From contig NZ_CP012020.1 in the NCBI RefSeq assembly GCF_001183865.1, positions 992,001-1,056,000 of the forward strand: a stretch of 64,000 bases of DNA. Reading direction: 5' to 3'. Shown here one piece after another: positions 2,090 through 59,144 of the stretch. The stretch's first letter is position 1. Each line of letters begins with the position of its first letter. The position numbers and the translations under genes are program-made. The stretch is from Methylophilus sp. TWE2 (GTDB taxonomy: Bacteria; Pseudomonadota; Gammaproteobacteria; Burkholderiales; Methylophilaceae). A model generated the notes under the pieces. That model was given only the letters and a program-made list of their open reading frames with translations, was not told where the DNA came from and ran no database searches.

Positions 2090-5000
2090 TTAACTCACAA
2101 ACTTGCGTGCGTTACGGAACATGCGCATCCACGGGCCATCTTCTTGCCACCCGTCAGGATGCCAGGAGTGTTGCACCGTCCTGAATACACGTTCCGGATG
2201 CGGCATCATGATGCTGAAACGACCGTCTTGCGTCGTAAAACCAGTCAAGCCTTGAAGTGAGCCATTAGGGTTGAACGGATAAACTTCGGTCGCTTGCGCG
2301 GCATGATCCACATAACGCACAGTTGCCAGTTGCTGTTGTAGCACACTTGTGACCATGCTGGCATCAGTAAATTCCGTAAAACCTTCACCATGAGCCACTG
2401 CAATCGGCATACGGCTACCGGCCATGCCATCAAAGAAGATGGAAGGTGAAGATAAAATCTCAACCAACGCGACACGCGCTTCAAATTGCTCAGACTTGTT
2501 ACGCACAAAATGTGGCCAGTGATCGGCACCTGGAATAATGCTGTGCAGGTTGCTCATCATCTGGCAACCGTTACAGACGCCCAGTGCGAATGTATCAGCG
2601 CGGTTAAAGAACGCGCTGAATTCATCACGTGCACGGCTGTTGAACAGAATGGACTTGGCCCAGCCTTCGCCAGCGCCAAGAACATCCCCGTAAGAGAACC
2701 CACCGCAGGCGACCAGGCCAGCAAAGTCCTTCAGTGACACGCGGCCACTGATCACGTCACTCATATGTACATCTACGCTGTTAAAACCGGCGCGGTCAAA
2801 GGCGGCCGCCATTTCGGTCTGGCCATTGACACCTTGCTCACGCAAAATCGCCATATTCGGACGTTTCCCCGTGTTGATATATGGCGCAGCAATATTGTCG
2901 TTAAGATCAAATGTTAGGTGGGCATGCAGGCCGGCATCGTTTGCATTGAGGATGCGGTCGTATTCCTGCTGTGCGCAAATCGGGTTGTCGCGCAGGCTTT
3001 GCATGCGGTAAGTCGTTTCAGACCACATACGGTGCAAATCAATGCGGGAAGCGTTGTACTGCATATTACCGTGTGTGATGGCAATATCATGGCCGGCATT
3101 GACGTGGCCAATGCGATGGACGCAGGCACCGAGCGCCTGTTCCAGTTGAGCGGTCACTGTGCTTGCATCTTCAGCACGTACTTGTATCACTGCACCCAGT
3201 TCTTCGTTAAACAGGATGCTAATCGTGTCGCCTTTCAGGCTCGATAAGTCAGCATTGAGGCCACAATGACCGGCAAAAGCCATCTCTGCCAAGGTCACGT
3301 AGAGGCCGCCATCAGAGCGATCGTGGTAAGCGAGTAGCTTGCCATCACTGTTAAGTTGCTGGATAGCAGCAAAAAATGCTTTTAGCTGTGCAGGCTGATC
3401 AACGTCAGGCACGGCATTGCCGAGTTGTTTGTAGACCTGTGCCAGTGCCGAGCCGCCCATGCGGTTGCGGCCATTACCAAGGTCGATCAGGATGAGCTCG
3501 CTGTCGCCCAAATCGGTGCGTAGTTGCGGTGTCAATGTCTTGCGCACATCTGGGGTATTGGCAAACGCGGAAATTACCAGCGAGATAGGCGCAGTGACGG
3601 CCTTGTTTTCACCGTTGTCTTGCCACACTGTTTTCATGCTCATGGAGTCTTTGCCGACCGGTATGCTGATCCCAAGTGCTGGACACAACTCCATGCCGAC
3701 AGTTTTGACGGTGGCGTATAAGGCGGCATCCTCACCAGCATGACCGGCGGGGGCCATCCAGTTGGCAGACAGTTTGAGGTTGCCGATGTCGCTAATAGCT
3801 GCAGCGGCAATATTGGTGATGGCTTCACCAATCGCCATGCGGCCGGAAGCCGGTGCATCAATCAGCGCCAGCGGGGCTTTTTCGCCAATGGCAAATGCCT
3901 CGCCGATATTGGTTTCAAACCCGGCACAGGTCACGGCCACGTTGCTGACTGGCACTTGCCAGGGGCCGACCATCTGGTCGCGCGCAATCAGGCCTGTTAC
4001 GCTACGGTCACCAATGGTGATCAGGAAGGTTTTGTCCGCCACGCCAGGCAGGCGCAGGACGCGTGCCACGGCATCGTTCAGGTCGATGTTGCTGGTATCA
4101 AAGGCTGGCAATGCTTTTTGTACTGATTTGACATCACGCAGCATTTTTGGCGGTTTGCCCAGCAGTACTGAGAGTTCCATATCCACTGGTTTATTGTCAA
4201 AGTGCGTGTCTTCCACAGTTAAATGGCGCTCTTTTGTCGTCACACCAACGACCGCGAACGGGCAGCGTTCCCGCTTACAAATCGCCTCAAACAATGGTAA
4301 CTGGTCTTGCGTGACGGCAAGCACATAACGCTCCTGGGCTTCGTTACTCCACAACTCGCGCGGGCTCATGCCAGGCTCTTCGTTATGCACATCACGTAAC
4401 TGGAACACGGCACCGACTTTGGCGTCGTTCACCAGTTCAGGGAAGGCGTTGGAAATACCACCGGCACCGACGTCATGAATGCTCAGGATGGGGTTCTTGT
4501 CGCCCATCTGCCAGCAACGGTCTATCACTTCTTGCGCACGGCGTTGCAGTTCAGGGTTGCCGCGTTGTACTGAATCAAAATCCAGGTTTTCGGTATTGGC
4601 ACCAGTGTCCATACTCGAAGCCGCACCGCCGCCCAGGCCGATCAGCATGGCTGGGCCACCCAGCTGAATCAATGCGGAACCTGGAGGAATACTGTTTTTA
4701 TGACTATGGCTATCGGAAATATTACCGACACCACCGGCCAGCATGATCGGCTTGTGGTAGCCACGCACTTCTGTTTTACCATCGGCACCGGTGGTTTCCA
4801 GTTCAAAGGTGCGGAAATAACCGGCAATATTAGGACGGCCAAATTCATTGTTGTAAGCCGCGCCACCCAGTGGGCCATCTATCATGATTTGCAATGGGCT
4901 GGCGATACGGCCAGGCTTGCCGTAATTGGATTCCCATGGTTGTTTGAAATCTGGCAGGTTGAGGTTGGAGACTGAAAAACCGGTTAAACCTGCTTTAGGC

Positions 5001-6001
5001 TTGGAGCCTATGCCAGTCGCACCTTCATCACGAATCTCGCCACCTGCACCGGTAGCTGCACCGGCAAATGGGGAGATCGCAGTCGGGTGGTTATGCGTTT
5101 CTACCTTCATCAGGTAGTGCATATTGTCTTCTACAAACTGGTAACTCTGGTCGGCAGCAGGGTAAAAGCGTTTGGTTTTCTGGCCTTGCACAATCGAAGA
5201 GTTATCCGAGTAGGCGACCACGGTGCTACCTGGATTCAGTTTGTGTGTGTTGCGGATCATGTTGAACAGTGAGAGCTCTTGCTGTACGCCATCAATCACC
5301 CAGTCGGCATTGAAAATCTTGTGGCGGCAATGCTCGGAGTTAGCCTGGGCAAACATCATGAGTTCCACGTCCGTTGGATTGCGGCCCATCTTGCGGTAGT
5401 TTTCCAACAGGTAATCCACTTCGTCTGGAGACAAAGCCAGCCCCATGTCGTTGTTGGCGGCTTCAAGCGCTGCTTTGCCACCAGCGAGAATGTCAATGCT
5501 GGAGAGTGGTTTGGGATCGGCGTGATGATACAGTTTTTCGGCATCGGCCAGGCTGTAGACGATGGTCTCTGTCATACGGTCCTGGATGGCCGCACGTAAA
5601 GCCTGTTTTTCGCCGTCTGTCAGTGGTGCGCCATTTGTGGTCGTCACGTAGTAAGCAATACCGCGCTCCAAGCGCAGCAAGTTGCCCAATCCACAGTTAT
5701 GGGCAATATCGGTCGCACGTGAGGCCCAGGGGGAAATGGTGCCTATGCGAGGTATGACCAGCAGCAGTTCACCGCTCGGGGATTCAATGTCCGTTTTCGG
5801 GCCGTAAGTCAAGATTTGGCGCAGCGTGTCTTGCTCAGTCGTGCTCAGTGCAGTTTCGCTAAAAGCAAAATGCACAAATTCGGTATAAATATGGGCGATA
5901 TTCGGTGCGCTGGTGTTGAGGACGCTATACAGTTTATCGAGACGGAATTGCGAGAGGGCGGCGCTGCCGCGCAGGCTTAAAAATTGCGCTTGACTGGACA
6001 T
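2090..6001 (-). CDS. purL: Phosphoribosylformylglycinamidine synthase (single-chain PurL)
   Basis: Catalyses the fourth step of purine synthesis, FGAR + ATP + glutamine to FGAM, in the cytosol (EC 6.3.5.3). At 1303 residues it is the large single-chain form of Gram-negative bacteria. It has an N-terminal PurS-like region, two AIRS-type ATP-binding halves (including [14 protein letters not shown] near 300 and PVGKDSMSM near 820) and a C-terminal class I glutamine amidotransferase domain from about 1040. The amidotransferase shows the nucleophile motif GVCNGCQ and the terminal HPE motif ([10 protein letters not shown]). It is monocistronic here. The start at 6001 has no strong ribosome-binding site, but the N-terminus aligns with the family. 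Confidence 0.98.
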
Positions 6002-26146: not shown

Positions 26147-26389
26147 ATGCACACCAACATTGATATAGAGCTTGATTTAACCGGTTTGGACAGTCCCTTG
26201 CCGATGTTAAAAACAAAAGAGTTACTGGATAGCCTGTCATCAGGTCAGGTGGTACTTGTGAAAACGACGGCTGCGGGTAGTGAGCAGAACATTCGTAATT
26301 TGATCAATAACCATCCCGTCACCTTATTGTCGCTGCACAAGCAAGATGGCGTATTCAACTTTTTAATTGAAAAAGACGCTGCCCTGTAA
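26147..26389 (+). CDS. TusA/SirA-like protein lacking the catalytic cysteine
   Basis: 80-residue protein with the beta-alpha-beta layout of the TusA/SirA sulfur carrier family. The usual active site (L-x-C-P-x-P) reads LDSPLP here, so the catalytic Cys is Ser16, and the protein has no cysteine at all. The following helix MLKTKELLDSL and the strand GQVVLVKTTAAGSEQNI correspond to the family. It therefore cannot carry persulfide sulfur and may be a regulatory or structural relative. AAGGAGGAG before the start, ten bases after darP, makes an operon with darP likely. The family assignment is from fold pattern only. Confidence 0.72.
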   Translation: MHTNIDIELDLTGLDSPLPMLKTKELLDSLSSGQVVLVKTTAAGSEQNIRNLINNHPVTLLSLHKQDGVFNFLIEKDAAL

Positions 26390-26447
26390 ACCGGGTAATA
26401 GCTATTCTTTGCGATTAGCTATACCGTATGTATAAAGGACACAAGGA

Positions 26448-26570
26448 ATAAGTGGCTGTGCGGGCAAATTGCTGCGTTGCGCGGTACTCGAAACCTCGCT
26501 GTACATCGCGTAATATCTTGGTTTCTGCGTTCCGTGCGCCTTGCACTTTATCCCGCTCGCTCACTTATTC
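26448..26570 (+). repeat. 123-bp imperfect palindromic repeat, copy 1
   Basis: Copy 1 of a dispersed element whose second copy is at 58983-59105. Both are exactly 123 bases long. The right 45 bases are identical, the left 42 differ at five positions, and the middle 36 differ widely. The ends are inverted repeats: here GGACACAAGGAATAAGTG (26437-26454) mirrors 26562-26579 with two mismatches. Near the centre, GAAACC (26490-26495) pairs with GGTTTC (26520-26525). In copy 2 the same positions are ATCACC and GGTGAT, so three base pairs changed on both sides at once. The element lies between the TusA-like gene and the convergent gene ending at 26586. No open reading frame in it looks real. Confidence 0.85.
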
Positions 26571-26585
26571 CGTGTATCCCTAAAC

Positions 26586-28559
26586 TTAATCAACTGGCTT
26601 CTTGGGCGGCAATAAAAATCTGCCTGGGTGGCGATAAAGTGCAGTGAATAATTCCAGCCAAAACGCTTTCCAGTGGCGGTAACGTACTTTTCTTGATTTC
26701 ATCGCGACATAAATGGCCAGGCCAAAACTGGTGATCAGGTTAAGGGTGCCGACCAAGGCAATGCCGAGAATGGCTGTGCCAACAATATATTCGCTGACCT
26801 GGAAGTCTAGCGCAGGGAGAGAATAGCCGGTGAACGCTGCCACAAAAGTCACATGACGGATATCTAGCGGTAATCCCAGCATCACGCCTAAACCTGAGGC
26901 AAAGCCCAATAGGCAGCCAAAGTAAAAGTTTCCGGCCAATGCTCCCAGGTTATGGCGGATATAGTCAGTAATGCGCCACAAGCGTTCTTTACCCAATAAT
27001 TTTTGTAGCCATGTTAAATGGCTTAGCCGCTCGGGGATGCGGTTATACGCTGCCAGGTTGTCGTGATAACCTGCGATCAGGCCAGACAGGAATAAACACA
27101 CTCCAGCCACCGCAGCGTACCAGGCGGTCAAGCTGATTAACGGATTATTGCTATCCAGTAATGCATGCGCTTTTTCTGTCCCGATAAAGTGATGCCCCGT
27201 GGCCTCCATGATCAACCAGTCTATCAGTATTGCTACCGGAATCACCACGACCACATTGCCCAAGATAGCAATGGTTTGGCTACTTGTGGTTTGTGCCACG
27301 ATATTGACCAGGTTGTGTATGTTTTTGCTGTCGTGACCATGATCATCAATGCTCGCCGCAATGGTCGCCGCGGTCATGGCGGGCTGCTTGGTTGCCACTG
27401 TAAAGTGCAGCAGATGAATGATGACAAAGCCCAGGCCATAATTGAGGCTGAATAAAATAGCCTCGGTGAGTGGCGGTAAATGGTAGCTGGCGATGATGAT
27501 TTTAAACATGGCCATGACCGCGATGATGACACCAGCCCCCATGGCCGACCCCATGAGTTTGTAGTATTCGCTACGATGTTGCGCAATATAATGCTCGCCG
27601 GTATGGCTGGCGTTCTCAGTGACGCGTAAAGCCAGCAGTTCGGTATTTTGGCGCCAGTAATCCGACAGGTTGTTTTTCTTGCACTCTGCATTCACTAATT
27701 GTTTCAACAGGCGTGTAATCGCCTGGCTGACATCATGCTTGAGGATGAGTCCATGCAGAATATCCACCACCAGTTGCATACGCTGGATTTGCTGCAAAAT
27801 ACGTTGCATCAATGCGGTCAGGGAGATGCTCGTCCCCGTTTTTGCATTAGCCTTACGGATTTCATAGGTCAGTTGTTCGCAGCGCTTAAGCACGCTGTAC
27901 AGATGCTGCACATCTTCAGCCTGGATACTCGATAAAGCGAGAAACTTCTGGATCTCAATATTTTGGGTAATGAATGGTGAGGAATTCGACTCCAGGTCTT
28001 CGTGTTGCAGAATCAACTCTGGATCCAGTCCCGAGGCTGATAGCCGGAAAGACAGCACTTGCAGCGCGTCTTTCAGCTCCTGAATACAGTTTTGCTGCAG
28101 TTGCCAGTCGCCACGGCTGATATCCAGCGTCAACATGAAGTCTCGCCAAATCTGGTCTGGCATGCCGGTCACCCAGTCGGCATCGTCATTTTGATGAAAA
28201 ATCTGGCCGAACACATCCTTCAGATATTTGGGATCAGGCACATCCGGCAGGATTTTATGCGAAAGTCGGCGATAAATTTCAGTAAAAAAGCCCAGGTCTG
28301 ACTGGATGCCATGATCTGAATAAAGCGAGATCACCGATTTTTCGTTGAGCAGGCGTAACAAACTGTTCCGCAACAGGATGGCAAACTGAGGTTGCTGTTG
28401 CAATAAGAAACACAATGCTTGCAGAGCATTGCTGGCGCTTTCAATATCGGTCGATTCTTTAGGCCGAATGTTGTCGAATAAGGCGCGTATAAATTCAATA
28501 TCATTGATATCGCCAGCCGCTTCTCGGGCAGTCTGGTGATCAAAAATGGGGCGAAACAT
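26586..28559 (-). CDS. Large polytopic membrane protein of the Gcr / COG4389 family (annotated elsewhere as site-specific recombinase)
   Basis: 657-residue protein. The first 330 residues are cytosolic and helical (FALLRNS-like LLRNSLLRLLN and repeated Leu/Gln-rich helices). From about 340 there are roughly seven membrane helices, for example MGAGVIIAVMAMFKIIIASY, YGLGFVIIHLLHF, AILGNVVVVIPVAILIDWLI and GCLLGFASGLGVMLG. It matches the family labelled site-specific recombinase Gcr, but I see no tyrosine-recombinase R-H-R-Y or serine-recombinase motif, and the topology is that of a membrane protein. The ATG at 28559 follows AGAAAG by eight bases; a GTG at 28568 is also in frame. Its function is unknown. 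Confidence 0.8.
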   Translation of the reverse strand: MFRPIFDHQTAREAAGDINDIEFIRALFDNIRPKESTDIESASNALQALCFLLQQQPQFAILLRNSLLRLLNEKSVISLYSDHGIQSDLGFFTEIYRRLSHKILPDVPDPKYLKDVFGQIFHQNDDADWVTGMPDQIWRDFMLTLDISRGDWQLQQNCIQELKDALQVLSFRLSASGLDPELILQHEDLESNSSPFITQNIEIQKFLALSSIQAEDVQHLYSVLKRCEQLTYEIRKANAKTGTSISLTALMQRILQQIQRMQLVVDILHGLILKHDVSQAITRLLKQLVNAECKKNNLSDYWRQNTELLALRVTENASHTGEHYIAQHRSEYYKLMGSAMGAGVIIAVMAMFKIIIASYHLPPLTEAILFSLNYGLGFVIIHLLHFTVATKQPAMTAATIAASIDDHGHDSKNIHNLVNIVAQTTSSQTIAILGNVVVVIPVAILIDWLIMEATGHHFIGTEKAHALLDSNNPLISLTAWYAAVAGVCLFLSGLIAGYHDNLAAYNRIPERLSHLTWLQKLLGKERLWRITDYIRHNLGALAGNFYFGCLLGFASGLGVMLGLPLDIRHVTFVAAFTGYSLPALDFQVSEYIVGTAILGIALVGTLNLITSFGLAIYVAMKSRKVRYRHWKAFWLELFTALYRHPGRFLLPPKKPVD

Positions 28560-28612
28560 GTGAAACACTTTCTTTGATACTGGTTAGGGCAAGGATAACA
28601 TGCGCTGATGTT

Positions 28613-58137: not shown

Positions 58138-58986
58138 GTGCGCCTGGATGACTTGGAAGAAAGCGGGCATGTCGAAGACAGTCGCGGCAGCGGTTTGATC
58201 GGTGGCCGCAGTATTGGTATTGGTACCATTGCGATTGCGCTGGTCGCCATGTATTTTGGCGTGGACCCTAATTTGGTGCTCAATATTGCTCAACAGGCCC
58301 AGCCTCCCGAACGTTCCCAGACGGCACCAGCAGATAATAATGATCCCAACGTAAAATTTGTCTCGCGTGTGTTGTGGAGTACCGAGCAAGTGTGGCAAGG
58401 CCTGTTTTCAGCTGCAGGGCGGCAGTACGCGCCACCCAACCTGGAGATTTTTGGAGGCGCTACCCAAACAGCGTGTGGGCAAGGCCAGGCAGCCATGGGC
58501 CCGTTTTATTGTCCGGCCGACCAAAAGGTCTATATCGATTTGAGTTTTTACCAGGAGTTGCAAGAGCGATTTAAAGCTCCGGGGGATTTCGCCCAGGCGT
58601 ATGTGATTGCACACGAAGTCGGGCATCATGTACAAAACCTGCTGGGCACGTCCGAGAAAGTACAGCAGGCCAGGCAGCAGGCACCTTCTGAGGCGGCCGC
58701 TAATGCCTATTCAGTGCGTCTGGAGTTGCAAGCCGATTGTTACGCTGGTGTGTGGGCGCATCATGCGGACCAGCAGTTTCGCATTTTGGAAGCGGGCGAT
58801 ATTGAAGAGGCCTTGCGTGCGGCAACGGCAATCGGTGATGATGCCTTGCAAAAGCAGGCGCAAGGCTATGTGGTCCCAGATAGTTTTACGCATGGCAGTT
58901 CAGAGCAGCGCGTGCACTGGTTCAAGCAAGGGTTGCAGTCAGGCCAAGTGAATGAGTGCAATACATTTAAAGGATTTGTGTCATAA
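58138..58986 (+). CDS. ypfJ: Membrane-anchored zinc metallopeptidase YpfJ
   Basis: 282-residue protein with one N-terminal membrane helix (GIGTIAIALVAMYFGV, about 27-42) and an external metallopeptidase domain. The zinc motif is HEVGHH near 160, the third ligand block is ELQADCYAGVW, and YCPADQKVYIDLSF precedes it. The family role is unclear. The GTG at 58138 has CGGAG upstream by about seven bases. Its TAA stop lies within the first bases of repeat copy 2, so the element may have supplied the stop. It is divergent from ribE. Confidence 0.93.
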   Translation: MRLDDLEESGHVEDSRGSGLIGGRSIGIGTIAIALVAMYFGVDPNLVLNIAQQAQPPERSQTAPADNNDPNVKFVSRVLWSTEQVWQGLFSAAGRQYAPPNLEIFGGATQTACGQGQAAMGPFYCPADQKVYIDLSFYQELQERFKAPGDFAQAYVIAHEVGHHVQNLLGTSEKVQQARQQAPSEAAANAYSVRLELQADCYAGVWAHHADQQFRILEAGDIEEALRAATAIGDDALQKQAQGYVVPDSFTHGSSEQRVHWFKQGLQSGQVNECNTFKGFVS

Positions 58987-59105
58987 GTGGCTACGCGGGA
59001 AAATTGCAGCGTTGCGCGATACTCATCACCTTGCCATTCTTCGTGTACTGTCTCGGTGATTGCGTTCCGTGCGCCTTGCACTTTATCCCGCTCGCTCACT
59101 TATTC
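58983..59105 (+). repeat. 123-bp imperfect palindromic repeat, copy 2
   Basis: Second copy of the element at 26448-26570, in the same orientation and of identical length. It shares the last 45 bases exactly and 37 of the first 42. The inner stem is ATCACC (59025-59030) with GGTGAT (59055-59060), fully complementary but different in sequence from copy 1. It begins at the ypfJ stop codon (58984-58986) and occupies most of the 158-base gap to the Nudix gene, downstream of a plus-strand gene as in copy 1. The outer arms pair imperfectly over about 50 bases. Confidence 0.85.
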
Positions 59106-59144
59106 GGTGATTTTTAAAATCAGTTTAGGCAATAGATTTAAGGC

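Follow-up and report, generated by a model that had tools for sequence, protein, structure and literature searches.

The window analysed here is a 64,000-nt stretch of Methylophilus sp. TWE2 (contig NZ_CP012020.1, positions 992,001 to 1,056,000). It contains two copies of a short palindromic element. Copy 1 is located in the gap between two convergent open reading frames (ORFs), and copy 2 overlaps the end of the upstream ORF 58138-58986, taking in its stop codon (58984-58986). The features of both copies are as follows.

26147-26389 (+ strand) and 26586-28568 (- strand): convergent ORFs enclosing the gap of copy 1
26437-26579, + strand: element copy 1, 143 bp
26437-26454, + strand: left terminal inverted repeat of copy 1, pairing with the right repeat at 16 of 18 positions
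26562-26579, - strand: right terminal inverted repeat of copy 1, complementary to the left at 16 of 18 positions
26474-26544, + strand: core of copy 1, 71 bp, with 37 bp to the left end and 35 bp to the right end
26490-26495, + strand: inner stem of copy 1, left strand GAAACC, whose first pair covaries (columns 55-88)
26520-26525, + strand: inner stem of copy 1, right strand GGTTTC, fully complementary to GAAACC
58968-58971, + strand: target duplication TAAA, left of copy 2
58972-59114, + strand: element copy 2, 143 bp, with decayed termini (9 of 18 matching)
59009-59079, + strand: core of copy 2, 71 bp
59025-59030, + strand: inner stem of copy 2, left strand ATCACC
59055-59060, + strand: inner stem of copy 2, right strand GGTGAT, fully complementary to ATCACC
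59115-59118, + strand: target duplication TAAA, right of copy 2

An earlier note, made from the sequence of this DNA, had given the element a length of 123 bp. That figure corresponds to the element minus the outer 10 bp on each side, and the length is really 143 bp. The note was right that the two copies are equally long, that they have an identical 45-nt right arm (26526-26570 and 59061-59105), and that their inner stems differ in three pairs while each remains fully complementary; the terminal inverted repeats of copy 1 are also near-perfect over 18 bases, as it had described. A 44-base pattern from the right arm, allowing up to 3 mismatches, matched twice in the window and never in 100 shuffles. 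Both strands of both copies folded better than all of 200 shuffles, with z between -4.0 and -7.4. No T-run, the sign of an intrinsic terminator, was seen by eye after the stem of the element.

The element is inserted precisely, with a 4-bp target duplication. Copy 2 lies between exact TAAA duplications; the flanks of copy 1 are TAAA and CTAA, with no exact duplication. Target-site duplications and empty sites had been proposed in the earlier note as a check, and both were found, the empty site for one copy outside the window. This copy (G000:2883881-2884023, in the window's own genome) is absent from a relative (G004), in which the flanks join at a single CTAA, and the filled site has exactly 143 bp between two CTAA. 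The corresponding gap of nine relatives lacks window copy 1 (10 loci were tried and one, L335, was unalignable), and its footprint was not readable there, the flanks being too diverged. We then read the edges of 149 copies selected by an exact core pattern, 148 of which have cores of 69-72 bp. Arm pairing was 59-91% over distances 21-37 and 36% at 38. Exact 4-bp repeats were present at this pairing edge in 40 of the 149 copies, compared with 0-3 for edges moved by -5 to -1 or by +1 to +6, and 15 at a shift of -6, which is inside the terminus. Among 65 copies with well-kept ends, 32 had the 4-bp duplication (shuffle mean 1.9, maximum 7 in 1000 shuffles) and five had a 5-bp duplication (0.16 expected by shuffle), while exact 3-bp duplications (3 of 65 versus 2.3) were not above chance. 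YTAR is the 4-bp target rule of IS5-type elements, and 16 of the 40 exact 4-bp duplications conform to it. The element has no transposase of its own, since 143 bp is too short to hold one. Terminal repeats, target duplications and the empty site favour a DDE-type transposon, and the element is almost certainly a MITE (a non-autonomous DNA transposon of the miniature inverted-repeat kind).

These results also bear on the suggestion of a REP/MITE-type family mobilised in trans, of which the dispersed MITE part stands, mobility in trans holds as far as can be judged from sequence, and the REP part fails. Like REP/BIME sequences with their RAYT (tyrosine) transposases, the repeat is a dispersed palindrome, and the genome does have a RAYT gene, the only one found (NF047646, 192.7 bits, L056 1934-2482). 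However, the linkage that the earlier note had envisaged was not seen, as no copy lies in the 4.5 kb fetched around this gene. Moreover, the clean empty site, the 4-bp duplications and the terminal repeats are traits of DDE transposons, and the element is several times longer than a REP sequence, for which a published abstract gives 20-40 bp. We rejected a REP/RAYT identity on the terminal repeats, the target duplications and the absence of copies near the RAYT gene; that RAYT moves this repeat is extremely improbable.

The earlier note had made its reading depend on further copies in the genome. There are 18 matching pieces, corresponding to about 16 elements, two of which are split in two pieces. 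Pattern search of 41 genomes gave a match in 22, and inside the genus in 19 of 22. We built a covariance model from 42 chosen copies, the first alignment consisting of 13 of the about 16 elements of the own genome with three interrupted ones omitted. In the order, this model found the element in 57 of 158 genera (118 of 399 genomes), and in the class in 48 of 272 genera (59 of 369 genomes); scoring covered 8 or 9 candidates in each genome, and copies per genome are thus a lower bound. The strict core pattern matched at least 118 stretches in named genomes. The matches listed include Halomonas, Billgrantia, Pseudomonas, Marinobacterium, Gallionella, Tepidiphilus, Methylotenera and Polaromonas, as well as metagenome-assembled genomes (MAGs) labelled Troglogloeales and Geobacteraceae. 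Among 72,556 plasmid records one matched, the same with each of two queries; none of 50,697 phage records matched the one query used, and one stretch was matched by the strict pattern in viral contigs. The element is thus widespread in chromosomes yet hardly present in plasmid, phage and viral collections.

Some copies depart from the common form. In one contig of G103 (L123, L124, L186) the element is repeated head to tail, in arrays whose periods are close to 142 and 122 bp. Longer forms have extra hairpin modules at two sites of the core: G067 (L293-L304) has forms of 173-258 bp and a single one of 370 bp, and the own genome has one of 197 bp (L016 1491-1687; also L014 and L017). The extra module may itself be a mobile repeat nested in the first, because it also occurs by itself in L133 (3765) and on the minus strand of L185, and in L070 it sits within the gene for RNase P RNA.

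The ends of the element are far more diverse than its core. Ends in register (at least 10 of 15 matching) were present in 99 of the 149 copies, the other 50 being without matching ends, and the 99 fell into 29 terminus clusters by a crude threshold; some clusters are related, and 16 hold a single copy. The CAGGCCGTTGAAAAA, GGGCACCTCTAAAAA and GAAACCCCTGCGAAA types are plainly unlike one another. The spacing of the 71-bp core to the ends is constant across terminus types. Copies of the CAGGCCGTTGAAAAA (CAGGCC) type have an exact 4-bp duplication in 9 of 11 cases, eight of them YTAR; copies of the GGGCACCTCTAAAAA (GGGCACC) type have one in 9 of 14, none of them YTAR. Both GGGCACCTC and GAAACCCC are terminus types found on copies of the element, and in the GAAACCCC cluster 3 of 11 copies have a 5-bp duplication. 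For the GAAACCCCTGCGAAA end, of which G174 has about ten copies, three of the four copies read there with exactly this end have a 5-bp duplication. Identical cores occur with unlike ends. One core is bounded by CAGGCC termini with 4-bp duplications and by GAAACCCC termini with 5-bp duplications, and a second by GGAAACGCTG and AGAGCTTGTG-type termini. Eight identical-core groups were found and these two were counted as clean, since the rest involve copies in tandem, ends that have decayed or less marked differences; in one of the clean groups, the second terminus type (L119, L121) is out of exact register, with a 3-bp duplication by eye. Because the 149 copies had been pre-selected by an exact core pattern, conservation of the core was measured on 29 copies found by the covariance model (29 of 31 alignment rows, the two dropped being the reverse strand of the same elements). 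Mean identity to the majority was 0.94 and 0.89 for the two core arms, 0.61-0.72 for the inner stem and loop, and 0.54-0.57 for the terminal parts within the model. Many unlike terminal repeats are found at a fixed distance from one 71-bp core with conserved arms.

Pairing of the two strands is kept by coordinated changes, as the note had proposed for the hairpin. Covariation was assessed with a test modelled on R-scape, in which substitutions were redistributed over the tree in 60 replicates, on 172 of 219 sequences remaining after a 95% identity filter (one long-core copy was removed beforehand). Nine column pairs were significant at E≤0.05. Seven are base pairs of the palindrome, 83-97% canonical (16-128, 30-113, 31-112, 34-109, 50-94, 55-88 and 64-79), and two are non-pairs, which we put down to the two core types; their significance indicates that the null leaves some subfamily structure. 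Covariation is real, exceeding the tree-based null. The note had named two outcomes that would refute its proposal, a lack of further copies and a lack of covariation above chance, and neither was observed. It had placed this covariation in the inner stem, where of five pairs the first (55-88) alone is significant by itself.

Several departures from Watson-Crick pairing recur at fixed places. T-G at columns 41-102 is present in 166 of the 172 copies and in 46 of 52 copies outside the pattern selection, T-T at columns 49-95 in 36 of these 52, and four core G-T pairs in 34-46 of them. These bear on the explanation that matched changes arise when one arm is copied from the other, by template switching at the hairpin, without selection for pairing. 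The arms may be near enough to template each other, and three adjacent pairs do differ together between the window copies. However, the same mismatches and wobbles (T-G 41-102, T-T 49-95) recur at the same places, which simple copying would erase, and Halomonas-type copies keep the same differences between left and right terminus, by eye. Arm-to-arm copying is for these reasons quite unlikely to account for the matched changes. At the mostly Watson-Crick positions G-T barely outnumbers A-C (375 versus 330), and selection on one RNA strand is therefore unsupported.

Insertions are in excess exactly at the ends of genes. Gene context was taken from naive ORF calls. By a first, cruder rule 28 of 90 copies were inside ORFs; by the rule used, which discards ORFs covering the element, the count is 1 of 85 and is low by construction. 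For 100 genes ending at an element (84 gaps), the stop codon lies -16 to +6 bp from the element edge in 46 cases, compared with 32, and at most 43, when positions were drawn at random 2000 times within these gaps, most of which are short. In 16 cases the gene ends exactly at the element edge, while random placement gave 1.4, with a maximum of 6 in 2000 trials. Relative to all gaps of these loci, convergent ones are enriched (25 of 84 versus 49 of 280, p=0.02) and divergent ones depleted (9 of 84 versus 61 of 280, p=0.027), both p values ignoring the kinship of loci. There is no bias of orientation to the genes (48 sense versus 52 antisense). In the gap between nrdA and nrdB, a copy is present at the same place in six alignable species, among seven loci chosen for holding copies (L051 was unalignable); its identity is 0.84 with a gap fraction of 0.18, compared with 0.87-0.89 in the coding flanks and 0.79 in the rest of the gap. 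G003 has another core type at this place. The own genome (L048) has copies on both sides of nrdB, at 3771-3913 and 5096-5242, and several relatives also have one or both of these positions occupied.

The element was also compared with Rfam. One family matched repeatedly, RF02228 (sX9, a Xanthomonas sRNA), on the 3' half of the element; a first guess, sRNA-Xcc1, was not what the scan returned. The scores were 44.1 bits in L141 against a cut-off of 44, the single one of 18 related loci at the cut-off, and 40.8 in L081. One element of the own genome (seen in L008 and L009) scored 24.4 bits. In the window, the scan found no family at its cut-off on either copy, the three hits being tRNAs.

The earlier note had offered a structured RNA 3' element as its other candidate. 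The excess at stop codons and the likeness of the 3' half to sX9 agree with it, while the lack of orientation bias does not. Put more strongly, the element could be a structured RNA first, either a 3'-UTR hairpin or a small RNA of the sX9 kind, selected by the host and only secondarily mobile. Covariation, the sX9 matches, the nrdA-nrdB copy kept in six species, the gene-end excess with few divergent gaps, and G-T pairs that recur even outside the pattern selection would all fit. A host-selected RNA does not fit so well with equal numbers of sense and antisense copies, the absence of copy 1 from nine relatives, the near equality of G-T and A-C, or precise insertions with target duplications, and we regard it as unlikely.

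Possible helper transposases were searched for by terminus type. In G174 and G044, which belong to one genus, CAGGCC termini occur in pairs about 1.32 kb apart. The two such elements whose ORFs were read encode IS5-family transposases (NF033581, 318.6 and 305.3 bits). By eye, they have about 15-16 terminal bases in common with the local short copies, and nothing beyond these in the ends compared. They are without exact 4-bp duplications (TTAG/CTAG in L290, none in L292). With about 15 terminal bp in common, the IS5-family transposase probably moves the local copies in trans; the idea that the element is an internal-deletion derivative of this IS5-family element was rejected, as only those about 15 bp are common by eye. 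Termini in common with an autonomous element were found for the CAGGCCGTTGAAAAA type in these two genomes, and not for the window's own type or the GAAACCCC type in the genomes searched. Copy-rich G067 has no CAGGCC-terminus pair of about 1.3 kb among the matches listed. For GAAACCCC termini no helper was found in four genomes, a lone end in L383 adjoining another copy. In the own genome there is no match to PF01609, the DDE family searched, and a search of 22 genomes of the genus, allowing up to 2 mismatches, gave no long element bounded by termini of the window's type. The copies of the window's genome are thus probably stranded.

Taken together, we consider it probable that the repeat is a MITE of fixed length, about 143 bp, consisting almost wholly of one imperfect palindrome, whose core is kept and which is moved in trans. 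An IS5-family transposase of one other genus would probably mobilise the local CAGGCC-type copies. Elsewhere, transposases of other specificities may have moved the element, as its copies vary in their termini, in the target sequence and in whether 4 or 5 bp are duplicated. The genome of the window would have lost its helper. The core may be retained as a single-strand hairpin, in RNA or in replicating DNA, which in transcript tails would be nearly harmless or even of some benefit. The termini, the target sequence and the length of the duplication make it plausible that unrelated transposases serve one core. More tentatively, and with the balance somewhat against it, the core may have repeatedly swapped its termini in register across the Gammaproteobacteria (in the GTDB sense), with unrelated transposases carrying it and the hairpin kept for a function of its own. 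If so, it would be a non-autonomous element that switches between transposases, with one part of it entered in Rfam as an sRNA, and a core outliving its termini would amount to a longer-lived parasite of parasites.

A literature search, with most subscription journals outside its scope, found no account of this repeat family. It may resemble ERIC. The review by Delihas (PMC2229807) describes ERIC, RUP, Correia/NEMIS and YPAL as repeats of 100-200 bp with terminal repeats or target duplications, whose transcripts form long stem-loops. Each of these, as given there, belongs to one organism or group and has one set of ends, whereas the present element has many. With sX9, the full 76 positions of the model align with the 3' half of some copies; however, the model covers half of the element, and the window copies are below the cut-off. 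According to a review (PMC9029176), sX9 is among the 20 most prevalent annotated bacterial sRNAs when all instances are counted. Such counts may partly be counts of mobile-element copies.

The closest likeness is to MITEs, which are likewise short, non-coding and multicopy, with terminal repeats and a target duplication. As in MITEs with IS5-family termini, the ends are in common with an insertion sequence, for one terminus type in one other genus. MITEs are usually regarded as the remains of one insertion sequence, bound to one transposase. In contrast, a single core is combined here with many types of terminus in fixed register, and the interior does not resemble a deletion derivative of the IS5-family insertion sequence. 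A core with changing ends would provide a direct test of how non-autonomous elements change their helper.
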